Part shown: positions 48,588-52,788 of the stretch, piece after piece
Layout: every line of letters starts with the position of its first letter
Position numbering within the stretch: the stretch's first letter is position 1
Translations under genes and position numbers: made by a program
From: Pseudovibrio sp. Alg231-02
GTDB lineage: Bacteria; Pseudomonadota; Alphaproteobacteria; Rhizobiales; Stappiaceae
Direction of reading: 5' to 3'
Length of the DNA stretch: 64,000 bases
Assembly: GCF_900143565.1 (NCBI RefSeq)
Contig: NZ_FREX01000002.1
Location: 186,001-250,000 of the forward strand
The notes under the pieces: model-generated
Told to the model about the DNA's origin: nothing
What the model saw: the letters and a program-made list of their open reading frames with translations, nothing else
Databases searched by the model: none

Positions 48588-49562
48588 ATGAACATTATTC
48601 ATAGGCCTGAATGGATTATTCCGGAAAGAGAAGCGACACCTGAGGATGTGTTCTTCAACCGGCGCAGGTTTATGAAGGGCTTGGGCGCTGTTGGCCTTGG
48701 TCTGGCAGCTGGTGGTACTGGTCTGGTGAGCAGTGTGTTTGCACAGGATGGCAAGGACCCAACCCTTGATCTCTACCCAGCTGAGCGGAACCCTGATTTC
48801 ACCCTGAAACGGGCAATTACGCCTGAGAGCGTGACATCCGTTTACAATAACTTCTATGAGTTTGGCTCACATAAACGGATTTCCGGTGCTGCGCAGGCGT
48901 TGAAGACACGTCCGTGGGCGATCACCATTGATGGTATGGTTGATAATCCGCAGACCATCGATTTTGATGATCTGGTGCGCAAGATGCCTTTGCAGGAGCG
49001 CCTTTATCGCCACCGCTGTGTTGAAGCGTGGGCGATGGCTGTGCCGTGGACTGGTTTCCAGCTATCCGAGCTGGTGAAGTACGCTGGTCCGCAGAATGGT
49101 GCCAAGTATATCCGTTTTGAGACCTTTGAAGATTCCGACGTGGCCAGCGGCCAGCGTCAGTTCTGGTATCCGTGGCCTTACGTTGAAGGCTTGACCATGG
49201 ATGAGGCTATGAACGAACTGGCGTTTGTTGCGACGGGCATCTATGGCAAGCCGTTGCAGAAGCAGTATGGCGCGCCGATCCGCTTGGTGATGCCATGGAA
49301 GTACGGCTTCAAGTCCATCAAATCCATCGTGAAGATCACCTTTACTGATCAACGTCCGGTCAGCTTCTGGGAGAAGATTGGCCCGAGCGAGTACGGTTTC
49401 TGGGCGAATGTGAACCCTGAAGTGCCGCATGCTCGCTGGTCGCAGGCTTCTGAGCGTTTGCTGGGTACGGATGAGCGCGTGCCAACACAGCTTTACAATG
49501 GCTATGCGGAGCAGGTGGCGCACCTTTATAAGGATCTGGAAGGGCAGAACCTTTATCGGTAA
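48588..49562 (+). CDS. msrP: Protein-methionine-sulfoxide reductase catalytic subunit
   Basis: MsrP (YedY) is a periplasmic molybdoenzyme that repairs oxidised methionines in envelope proteins. The 324-residue protein has a Tat signal (NRRRFMKGLGAVGLGLAAGG, 24-43) and the sulfite-oxidase fold. The molybdenum ligand is Cys144 in RHRCVEAWAM; YGAPIRLVMPWKYGFKSIKS and the C-terminal LGTDERVPTQLYNGY are conserved. The heme-b partner MsrQ normally follows msrP, but no msrQ is seen here; a terminator comes instead, so the electron donor is encoded elsewhere. Confidence 0.95.
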   Translation: MNIIHRPEWIIPEREATPEDVFFNRRRFMKGLGAVGLGLAAGGTGLVSSVFAQDGKDPTLDLYPAERNPDFTLKRAITPESVTSVYNNFYEFGSHKRISGAAQALKTRPWAITIDGMVDNPQTIDFDDLVRKMPLQERLYRHRCVEAWAMAVPWTGFQLSELVKYAGPQNGAKYIRFETFEDSDVASGQRQFWYPWPYVEGLTMDEAMNELAFVATGIYGKPLQKQYGAPIRLVMPWKYGFKSIKSIVKITFTDQRPVSFWEKIGPSEYGFWANVNPEVPHARWSQASERLLGTDERVPTQLYNGYAEQVAHLYKDLEGQNLYR

Positions 49563-50440: not shown

Positions 50441-50585
50441 GCAAAAAAAAACCGGACCATGCGGTCCGGTTTCGAAGTGATGAATGATAAAGCACCTAAT
50501 GGGTGCAATCACCTTCCAGAGGGGAACAGTTGATCGGATGTTGATGTCACTGGGAGGAGAGGTGTGACAACAACTGATCAACAGC
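50441..50585 (-). ncRNA. abcR: AbcR-like (alpha-r15 type) trans-acting small RNA
   Basis: A roughly 140-nt transcript is predicted from about 50584 to the T-run at 50450-50443. Hairpin 1 (50581-50530) pairs TTGATC/GATCAA, GTTG/CAAC and TGTCAC/GTGACA around a 13-nt loop ACCTCTCCTCCCA, an anti-Shine-Dalgarno sequence. A second C/U-rich segment (GTTCCCCTCTGG) is single-stranded. Hairpin 2 contains GCACC/GGTGC. Hairpin 3 is the terminator AAACCGGACC/GGTCCGGTTT plus eight T. This three-hairpin layout and the position next to an LsrB/VtlR regulator match AbcR RNAs, which repress ABC-transporter mRNAs in Hyphomicrobiales. Primary sequence identity to known AbcR was not checked. Confidence 0.78.
50443..50472 (-). 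terminator. Intrinsic terminator of the AbcR-like RNA
   Basis: A perfect 10-bp stem (50449-50458 with 50463-50472), tetraloop, and an uninterrupted run of T on the minus strand. There is no minus-strand ORF immediately upstream that it could serve. Confidence 0.95.
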
Positions 50586-50590
50586 AGGTG

Positions 50591-50620
50591 TATATATGCA
50601 GTGCAGCGCCGAAACAGCAA
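50591..50620 (-). promoter_or_regulatory. Sigma-70-type promoter of the AbcR-like RNA
   Basis: On the minus strand TTGCTG (50620-50615), an 18-bp spacer and TATATA (50596-50591). Transcription would start near 50584, at the base of hairpin 1. Confidence 0.7.
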
Positions 50621-50631
50621 TCCTTAATTTT

Positions 50632-50648
50632 TGCATTGCAGCTATGCA
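50632..50648. promoter_or_regulatory. Candidate LysR-type (LsrB/VtlR) binding site
   Basis: Inverted repeat TGCAT-N7-ATGCA centred near position -56 relative to the predicted sRNA start. This is where LysR-type activators bind. The adjacent LysR gene makes it the likely regulator; inference only. Confidence 0.5.
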
Positions 50649-50886: not shown

Positions 50887-51798
50887 CTAGTGTGTCCAAC
50901 GTTCTGCATAGGAGACGAGGAAGTCTCTGAATGCGGTAACACGAGCGGTGTTTTTCAGCTCGGATGGATACACGAAGTAGGTATCAAAGCTTGGCAGCTC
51001 TTCCTGTGTGACGGACATAACGCGTTTGATGCCTGCGCCCGGCTCAACCATGTAGTCCGGCAGAATAGCGATACCGACGCCGGTCTGTACGGCTTTTTTG
51101 ATGCCAGACAGGTTGTTCACGCGCAGGGAAACATCGCGGCGCTCGCCGTTTGGCAATCCGGCTGTTGCAAGCCAGTTCATCGCGCGCAGGTAGGAGGCCA
51201 TATTGTCACCGATGGTGATCAGGCGGTGGTGGTCCAGATCATCGATGGTGCTTGGGCTGCCAAAGCGCTCAATATAGGTCGGTGAGGCGTAGACGTGGAA
51301 GTGCACCGTAAACAGCTTGCGCTGGATGAGGTCTGGCTGTGTTGGCTGGCGCAGGCGGATGGCGACATCTGCCTCACGCATGCCCAGATCCAGCTCATCA
51401 TCCATGCAGATGAGTTCCAAACGCATATCCGGGTAAAGATCCACGAACTCGTTGACACGGGCGGTGAGCCAAGTGGAGCCGAGCCCCACTGTGGTGGTGA
51501 CACGGAGCGTGCCGCTTGGCTTTTCCTTGGTGTCGGTCAGGCGGGACTGAACGGTTTCCAGTTTCAGCAGAACTTCACGGGCGGTTCTGTAAAGAAGCTC
51601 GCCTTGTTCTGTTGGAATCAGCCCGCGTGCATGACGGTGGAAGAGGGGGACACCCAGCTCTGCCTCAAGTGCACTGACCTGACGGCTGACAGCCGACTGA
51701 CTCATGTTGAGAGCTTCGCCTGCGTGGGTAAAGCTTCCTGCCTGTGCTGCTGCGTGGAAAATTCGCAGCTTGTCCCAATCCAAAGAACGGCCTGGCAT
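50887..51798 (-). CDS. lsrB: LysR-family regulator, LsrB/VtlR type
   Basis: A 303-residue LysR-type regulator. The winged helix-turn-helix is at 1-60 (LDWDKLRIFHAAAQAGSFTH, then AGEALNMSQSAVSRQVSALE) and the two-lobed effector domain begins near 95 (SGTLRVTTTVGLGSTWLTAR). ATG at 51798 is chosen over one five codons upstream because GGGGGGAAAGC precedes it. The N-terminus and location (trxB 27 bp upstream, sRNA gene downstream) match LsrB of Sinorhizobium and VtlR of Brucella/Agrobacterium, which activate AbcR sRNAs and affect redox and envelope genes. It has a single cysteine (LELICMDDE). Confidence 0.85.
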   Translation of the reverse strand: MPGRSLDWDKLRIFHAAAQAGSFTHAGEALNMSQSAVSRQVSALEAELGVPLFHRHARGLIPTEQGELLYRTAREVLLKLETVQSRLTDTKEKPSGTLRVTTTVGLGSTWLTARVNEFVDLYPDMRLELICMDDELDLGMREADVAIRLRQPTQPDLIQRKLFTVHFHVYASPTYIERFGSPSTIDDLDHHRLITIGDNMASYLRAMNWLATAGLPNGERRDVSLRVNNLSGIKKAVQTGVGIAILPDYMVEPGAGIKRVMSVTQEELPSFDTYFVYPSELKNTARVTAFRDFLVSYAERWTH

Positions 51799-51825
51799 TT
51801 GCTTTCCCCCCATCTTCCCGGTTTC

Positions 51826-52788
51826 TTATTCTGCTGCTTCGGTTTCAGATTCCAAAGCTGCCAGGTAGCGTTCTGCTTCCAGTGCAGCCATGCAGCCCAT
51901 TCCTGCAGCGGTCACAGCCTGACGGTACTGCTCATCAGTCACGTCGCCAGCTGCGTACACACCCGGAATGGATGTCTGAGTTGAATCAGCTTCGGTCCAA
52001 ATGTAACCGGCTTCCTTCATCTTTACCTGATCTTTGACAAGGTCAACCGCTGGAGCGTGTCCAATAGCGATGAATACGCCGTGTGTGGACATTTCTGTGG
52101 TTTCACCGGTCTTACGGTTTTTCAGGCGGATGCCAGTCACAACAGCTGGGTTTTCAGTGCCGAGGATTTCATCCACTTCACTGTCCCAGACCACGTTGAT
52201 CTTTTCGTTTTTGAAGAGGCGTTCCTGAAGGATCTTTTCGGAGCGCAGGGCATCACGACGGTGAACCAGCGTGACTTTTTCTGCCAGGTTCGCGAGGTAG
52301 AGCGCTTCTTCAACGGCGGTGTTGCCGCCACCAACCACAACAACTTCCTTGCCACGGTAGAAGAAACCGTCACAAGTTGCACATGCGGAGACGCCGCCAG
52401 CCTGATACTTTTCCTCTGAAGGCAGACCGAGCCATTTTGCCTGTGCACCGGTTGCGATGACGAGGGCATCTGCGGTGTAAAGGGTGCCGCTGTCGCCTTT
52501 CAGCTCAAACGGGCGCTTGGAGAGGTCTGCTTCCAAAATGGTGTCGTAATCGATCTTGGTGCCGACGTTTTCTGCCTGCTTGCGCATTTCTTCAACCAGC
52601 CAAGGACCCTGAATTGGATCGGCAAAGCCCGGGTAGTTTTCAACGTCGGTGGTGATGGTCAGCTGACCGCCAGTCTGCACACCTGTGACCAGAAGCGGTT
52701 CCAGCATAGCGCGTGCGCCGTAGATTGCGGCGGTGTAGCCAGCAGGGCCGGAGCCTACGATCAGGAGTTTGGTGTGCTTAACAGTCAT
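51826..52788 (-). CDS. trxB: Thioredoxin-disulfide reductase
   Basis: TrxB reduces thioredoxin with NADPH through FAD and a CxxC. The 320-residue low-molecular-weight enzyme has the FAD motif LIVGSGPAGYTAAIYG (9-24), the redox pair Cys136-Ala-Thr-Cys139 in GVSACATCDGFF, the NADPH motif VVVGGGNTAVEEALYLA and the C-terminal GVYAAGDVTDEQYRQAVTAA FAD loop. It is upstream of the LsrB-type gene with a 27-bp gap, so the two are probably co-transcribed, which links thiol redox with this regulator. Confidence 0.97.
   Translation of the reverse strand: MTVKHTKLLIVGSGPAGYTAAIYGARAMLEPLLVTGVQTGGQLTITTDVENYPGFADPIQGPWLVEEMRKQAENVGTKIDYDTILEADLSKRPFELKGDSGTLYTADALVIATGAQAKWLGLPSEEKYQAGGVSACATCDGFFYRGKEVVVVGGGNTAVEEALYLANLAEKVTLVHRRDALRSEKILQERLFKNEKINVVWDSEVDEILGTENPAVVTGIRLKNRKTGETTEMSTHGVFIAIGHAPAVDLVKDQVKMKEAGYIWTEADSTQTSIPGVYAAGDVTDEQYRQAVTAAGMGCMAALEAERYLAALESETEAAE

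Follow-up and report, generated by a model that had tools for sequence, protein, structure and literature searches.

An AbcR-type small RNA gene beside lsrB in Pseudovibrio, with one copy and two anti-Shine–Dalgarno motifs

The closest described counterparts of the RNA gene analyzed here are AbcR1 and AbcR2 of S. meliloti, Agrobacterium and Brucella (alpha-r15, or ar15). In S. meliloti, AbcR1/2 carry one anti-Shine–Dalgarno (anti-SD) motif, aSD1 CUCCUCCC, in the 5' loop and another, aSD2 UUCCCCUC, between stem-loops SL1 and SL2, and the promoter PabcR1 has an LsrB box at -61 to -49 (PMC8844928). The gene order in A. tumefaciens is trxB-vtlR-abcR1-abcR2, (PMC7486931), and the consensus bound by VtlR/LsrB has been given as GCAT-N3-TG-N3-T (PMC7486931, PMC8844928). 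Another group of anti-SD RNAs, alpha-r14 (ar14), has three or four similar CCUCCUCCC hairpins (PMC3927594), and its S. meliloti member NfeR1 is activated by LsrB via a similar box (PMC10746234). As for the regulator itself, C144/C273 and C236/C244 are the proposed redox pairs of A. tumefaciens LsrB, where replacement of C273 raised peroxide sensitivity and replacement of C144, C236 or C244 left function unaffected (PMC11975290).

We analyzed a window of 64,000 nucleotides of Pseudovibrio sp. Alg231-02, the whole stretch of DNA under study, in which positions 50443..50586 (minus strand) very probably hold the single abcR (alpha-r15) gene of Pseudovibrio, with an LsrB-activated sigma70 promoter and an RNA of ~140 nt that would block translation via two anti-SD segments. 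The hairpin order, the terminator and an upstream LsrB box are those of AbcR1/AbcR2, the S. meliloti anti-SD motifs recur exactly, and the position downstream of trxB-lsrB/vtlR is shared with AbcR of both A. tumefaciens and S. meliloti. Unlike AbcR1/AbcR2, the Pseudovibrio RNA has one copy rather than two, scores below the Rfam cut-off and adjoins an LsrB without Cys144 and Cys273. The analysis supplies the predicted structure with its covariation, both motifs, the box, the orthologous location, the homology to AbcR, the single copy and an hfq gene in the genome; transcription, activation by LsrB, use of Hfq and repression of transporter mRNAs are carried over by analogy with rhizobia. By this analogy, LsrB would bind the box at 50647-50635 and, once bound, would activate the sigma70 promoter, giving an RNA of ~140 nt, whose loop motif CUCCUCCC and linker motif UUCCCCUC would pair with mRNA ribosome-binding sites. 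Hfq would probably take part in this pairing, which would block translation of nutrient-uptake genes. In literature searches on AbcR1 with genus names and on Pseudovibrio sRNA, this RNA appeared in none of the matches listed.

The 5' end of the RNA is predicted near 50584-50586. Its 5' hairpin, SL1 (50526..50585, minus), is backed by the fold and by covarying pairs, and presents a loop of exactly 13 nt, ACCUCUCCUCCCA (50563-50551), when the minus strand is folded. Inside this loop lies aSD1 (50552..50559, minus), and aSD2 follows in the linker (50519..50526, minus) within UGUUCCCCUCUGGAAGG; each is an exact match to its S. meliloti counterpart. The fold then gives a small middle hairpin, SL2, GCACC-CATTA-GGTGC (50492..50506, minus), and, together with a terminator reading, an 11-pair intrinsic terminator (50448..50473, minus) that leads into a run of T. 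The RNA thus has three hairpins, the last of them an intrinsic terminator, as expected of an AbcR. Reading and folding placed the loop, the second C/U-rich segment and the terminator on the minus strand just where the original prediction had put them. The predicted energy was -51 kcal/mol, compared with -30.3 (sd 3.4) for shuffled sequences (z -6.1), and none of 200 shuffles was as low.

We then examined how widely the gene is conserved. BLAST matches to the abcR RNA were found in 63 of 101 genomes, corresponding to 16/16 of the genus (own genome included), 42/45 of the rest of the family and 5/40 of the remainder. The genus alignment comprised 14 of the 16 genomes, leaving out G003, which does not differ from the window across the query, and G012, where BLAST yielded no locus. 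The SL1 loop, whose loss in relatives had been named as grounds for rejecting the prediction, is kept in the aligned genus sequences. The aSD2 motif sits in a highly conserved stretch between SL1 and SL2, and UUCCCCUC occurs in 34 of the 36 sequences of a wider alignment (A3).

For covariation we used alignment A5, 39 rows chosen by hand among loci of the family to which the window belongs (f1), which is Stappiaceae as judged partly from organism labels in the LsrB alignment. Left out of A5 were four genus loci (L002, L003, L006, L010), L023 (same place as L053), four non-family loci (L031, L034, L037, L049) and L059, as well as loci of an ar15 search that repeated BLAST places; BLAST places without a locus entered only via an ar15-search locus. 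In SL1 and the terminator, 12 of 22 pairs were changed on both sides across these 39 relatives (95 cells), a result as high as which was seen in 0/500 shuffles that do not preserve the relatedness of the sequences. Base pairing was kept in 97.4% of the cells of this 39-row alignment, and all six slid controls were far lower. The count of further pair types among the 39 relatives was no higher than chance (192/500 shuffles reach it). Two loci call for separate mention. L059, a covariance-model match, was rejected because it fails to align like an AbcR gene. In the genus member G010 (L018), the abcR copy has no lsrB ORF within ~1.5 kb per side and there is a transposase-like ORF upstream.

The neighborhood is that of an AbcR gene, with abcR downstream of trxB-lsrB/vtlR. 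The LysR-type regulator lsrB/vtlR (50887..51813, minus) was identified by protein comparison, its best solved match being 9HH1, A. tumefaciens LsrB (E 1.5e-119), and it is preceded by the conserved upstream neighbor trxB, a thioredoxin reductase gene (51826..52788, minus; TIGR01292, 409 bits, over the NCBIfam cut-off). This structural match and the trxB-lsrB order, as in A. tumefaciens, bear out the earlier assignment of the neighbor as an LsrB/VtlR orthologue. On the other side lies the convergent downstream neighbor msrP (48588..49562, plus; NF003767, 422 bits). Among 80 named lsrB loci, trxB is present in 78 and an msrP-like gene (alignment over 150 aa) in 22, being convergent downstream in 21.

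Upstream of the RNA, the promoter-like pair TTGCTG-N18-TATATA is present as predicted, with a -35-like TTGCTG at 50615..50620 and a -10-like TATATA at 50591..50596 (minus strand; spacing 18 nt); the family alignment permits CATATA too (50598-50593). The TTG of the -35 is invariant in the 14 aligned genus sequences, in which the -10 region is also conserved. The pair was absent from the two sites given by a 9-of-12 promoter scan. Further upstream, GCATAGCTGCAAT (50635..50647, minus) is a perfect match to the published LsrB/VtlR consensus, GCAT-N3-TG-N3-T, and, if transcription starts at 50586, this predicted box would occupy -61 to -49. Both targeting motifs, the AbcR architecture and an LsrB box at the AbcR1 position uphold the proposed AbcR identity.

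The box is conserved along with the RNA. GCAT-N3-[TA]G-N3-T was found in 14/14 aligned genus sequences (strict TG in 12/14) and in 34 of 36 sequences of the wider alignment, the misses being L059 and L037, the latter with no lsrB ORF of at least 200 aa in its stretch. To look beyond the alignments, we used a 14-mer from the aSD2 stretch. With up to one mismatch (background: 1 match in 942,689 bases), 62 of the 80 named lsrB loci carry it at most 1 kb downstream, 45 of them once and 17 more than once, and 55 of these 62 have the box 40-200 nt before the first copy, compared with 549 of 16,000 random 160-nt windows (3.4%). Exact copies of the 14-mer number 74; 58 of them have a box in the searched stretch, always at a distance of 101-122 nt within an observable range of 53-200, and the other 16 have none there.

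In Pseudovibrio LsrB, the positions of both C144 and C273 hold valine, C236 and C244 are missing as well, and the sole cysteine is residue 136. With valine in place of both Cys144 and Cys273 and the one cysteine left lying elsewhere, it is unlikely, as far as the protein sequence tells, that induction here works through the thiol switch described for Agrobacterium LsrB. Across the LsrB alignment, a cysteine at 273 is found in 50 of 81 rows and absent in 31, and this label needs 4 changes on the LsrB tree, compared with a shuffled mean of 25; the tree is midpoint-rooted and does not set cysteine gain apart from loss. Species with abcR beside lsrB occur in both the Cys273-bearing and the Cys273-free groups. 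One row of the tree, L126, comes from a contig titled Bacillus subtilis that groups with Pseudochrobactrum/Brucellaceae and is probably a mislabelled or contaminated record.

The missing Cys144 and Cys273 lend some weight to a reading in which the RNA is a true AbcR homologue under rewired control, the box being a relic or the site of a different LysR protein, with LsrB answering a metabolite. An extra near-palindrome, TGCACTGCA (50597..50605, minus), which abuts the -10 and is largely conserved (exact in 11/14 genus and 26/36 wider sequences), would fit such rewiring and is possibly a second regulator contact. However, the sequence and spacing of the box are conserved in cysteine-free and cysteine-bearing lineages alike, and seven aligned LsrB proteins show strong conservation of the HTH region, so we regard rewired control as unlikely beside an LsrB-activated abcR. 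The near-palindrome was not seen in L031, a copy recognized by Rfam.

To which family the RNA belongs was less obvious from Rfam. At the gathering threshold, the whole window gave no match, and we therefore used permissive thresholds and a model of our own. The original prediction had called for a covariance search, and the ar15 model (RF02345) does match the RNA (31.6 bits, E 1.3e-4 in a 601-base search), though under its 40-bit cut-off, which is a database criterion and not a biological definition. Among the 101 relatives, an ar15 search with stricter filters than BLAST gave a match at E<=0.01 in 32 and none in 5 of the 16 genus genomes, and G083 was the only relative over the cut-off. In 17 named loci scanned, nine passed the ar15 cut-off (L086, L088, L089, L095, L101, L104, L133, L141, L146) and eight failed it (L070, L072, L073, L075, L077, L082, L092, L109), the latter belonging to Pseudovibrio, Stappia, Roseibium, Pleomorphomonas, Kaistia, Cohaesibacter and Xanthobacter.

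Our covariance model, R1, was built from the 39 A5 sequences. It gave a plus-strand match (E<=1e-3) downstream of lsrB in 71 of the 80 named loci; the informative count is 63/72, once eight of the matched loci (L069-L076), from Stappiaceae closely related to the sequences behind the model, are set aside. One match, in L130, lies ~1.8 kb from lsrB. No plus-strand match at E<=1e-3 was obtained in the other nine of the 80, namely L080, L081, L090 (locus truncated), L091, L094, L100, L105, L124 (E 0.019) and L132; L091 and L105 have matches at this threshold on the minus strand instead. R1 matches all nine named loci whose copies Rfam ar15 accepts and also the eight it misses. Since R1 thus links the accepted and the missed lsrB-side copies in one chain, the window RNA is, by sequence comparison, an orthologue of AbcR. 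In its own genome, R1 gave one strong match and eight weak ones, in agreement with the predicted single copy. Four of the weak matches that we read as candidate second copies (L150-L153) were rejected, being terminator-like hairpins with no anti-SD motif.

The window scores slightly higher in bits with ar14 (RF02344; 33.4 bits, E 1.7e-4) than with ar15, as it might if the RNA were an alpha-r14 RNA of the NfeR1/SmelA075 kind, with a set of CCUCCUCCC hairpins, and not AbcR; CCUCCC-type loops are indeed common to it and to NfeR1/alpha-r14, SmelA075/SmelA099. Yet this score is under the ar14 cut-off of 58.8, and three other RNAs in the genome with several CCUCCC segments score higher for ar14, also below the cut-off (C3:114603, 54.3 bits; C22:26636, 45.7; C14:374316, 39.1). 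In contrast to the several hairpins of alpha-r14, the window RNA has one CCUCCUCCC-type hairpin with a single CCUCCC loop and a different linker motif, the AbcR-type UUCCCCUC, and its position beside lsrB is that of AbcR. The discriminating features, both aSD motifs being exact, point to ar15 over ar14, and an alpha-r14 identity seems very improbable. The predicted ORF-free setting does not hold literally, as a mechanical 108-aa TTG ORF (50620-50294, minus) and an 80-aa plus-strand ORF overlap the RNA. Stop codons interrupt the 108-aa frame in 11 of 14 aligned genus sequences, which makes it an improbable coding sequence. With a structure that covaries and conserved promoter-like and box elements of its own, the locus is scarcely credible as a translated small ORF or, although it follows lsrB in the same orientation, as an lsrB 3' region without RNA function of its own.

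For the presumed AbcR targets, we compared 38 starts of substrate-binding-protein genes (those passing the Pfam cut-off in any of three families, with start codons chosen by a custom score) with 114 control genes. These starts paired better with both aSD1 and aSD2 (AUC 0.65, p 0.003 each). Reversed seeds came close to this, however (0.61, 0.64), so the comparison does not show specific pairing with substrate-binding-protein starts. The better pairing of these starts is ascribed to their stronger SD sequences. Repression of transporter mRNAs in Pseudovibrio is proposed by analogy, its mechanism taken over from S. meliloti.

We also searched the 5.96 Mb genome for other LsrB-type boxes. The pattern TGCATANCNGNNNTGC has five sites, one of them at abcR, and zero when read backwards. 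One further site, at C3:114494-114509 (L162), lies ahead of a putative RNA (L158:2540-2720), which is located 3' of a uvrA-like gene and whose four CCUCCC segments seem to form hairpins. Of 15 genus genomes examined, the own one among them, 13 have a relaxed box 60-180 nt ahead of the initial TCCTCCC of this second RNA, the exceptions being L175 and L180. At two other sites, C3:144732 and C8:1143315, no target was recognized. The remaining site, C7:282919-282934 (minus; L164), is 11 bases before TTGACA-N16-TATAGT, followed by a small membrane-protein-like ORF, with TTCCTCCC near the 3' end of the stretch. Elsewhere in the genome, on C14 (L160:1840-2080, minus), five CCTCCC motifs are followed by a terminator-like end, and 39.1 bits are scored for ar14 over part of the length.

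In the sister genera, an alpha-r14-like RNA follows a Pfam-confirmed DUF1127 ORF in five of six loci (L181, L182, L183, L185, L186), each with a relaxed box 289-319 nt upstream of the first TCCTCCC; at L184 the alpha-r14-like RNA has no box. CcsR1-4/CcaF1 of Rhodobacter are DUF1127-RNA operons. They resemble the RNAs with several anti-SD segments after DUF1127 genes in the Pseudovibrio sister genera, a likeness that concerns the kind of the second RNA and not abcR. Because LsrB activation of NfeR1 is already shown in S. meliloti, the box before the second anti-SD RNA is, as read from the sequence, conservation of the known LsrB-NfeR1 link and not a new link.

Together, these results make abcR here an ordinary, well-supported member of the known AbcR type, and in keeping with the predicted less-studied lineage, they place AbcR in Pseudovibrio, where the Rfam ar15 cut-off misses the RNA. 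More tentatively, LsrB in Pseudovibrio and its family may command an anti-SD RNA regulon, made up of the single AbcR and the four-CCUCCC alpha-r14-like RNA (on a DUF1127 tail in the sister genera), without the redox cysteines; such a circuit would be independent of the thiol switch, perhaps older, and would answer another signal. The gene described here extends AbcR from rhizobia and close kin to marine Stappiaceae and to other families of Hyphomicrobiales missed by the Rfam cut-off. Pseudovibrio offers a one-copy AbcR system, free of AbcR1/AbcR2 redundancy, and its adjoining LsrB, which has no redox pair, makes it possible to test if the RNA circuit depends on the redox switch of Agrobacterium.
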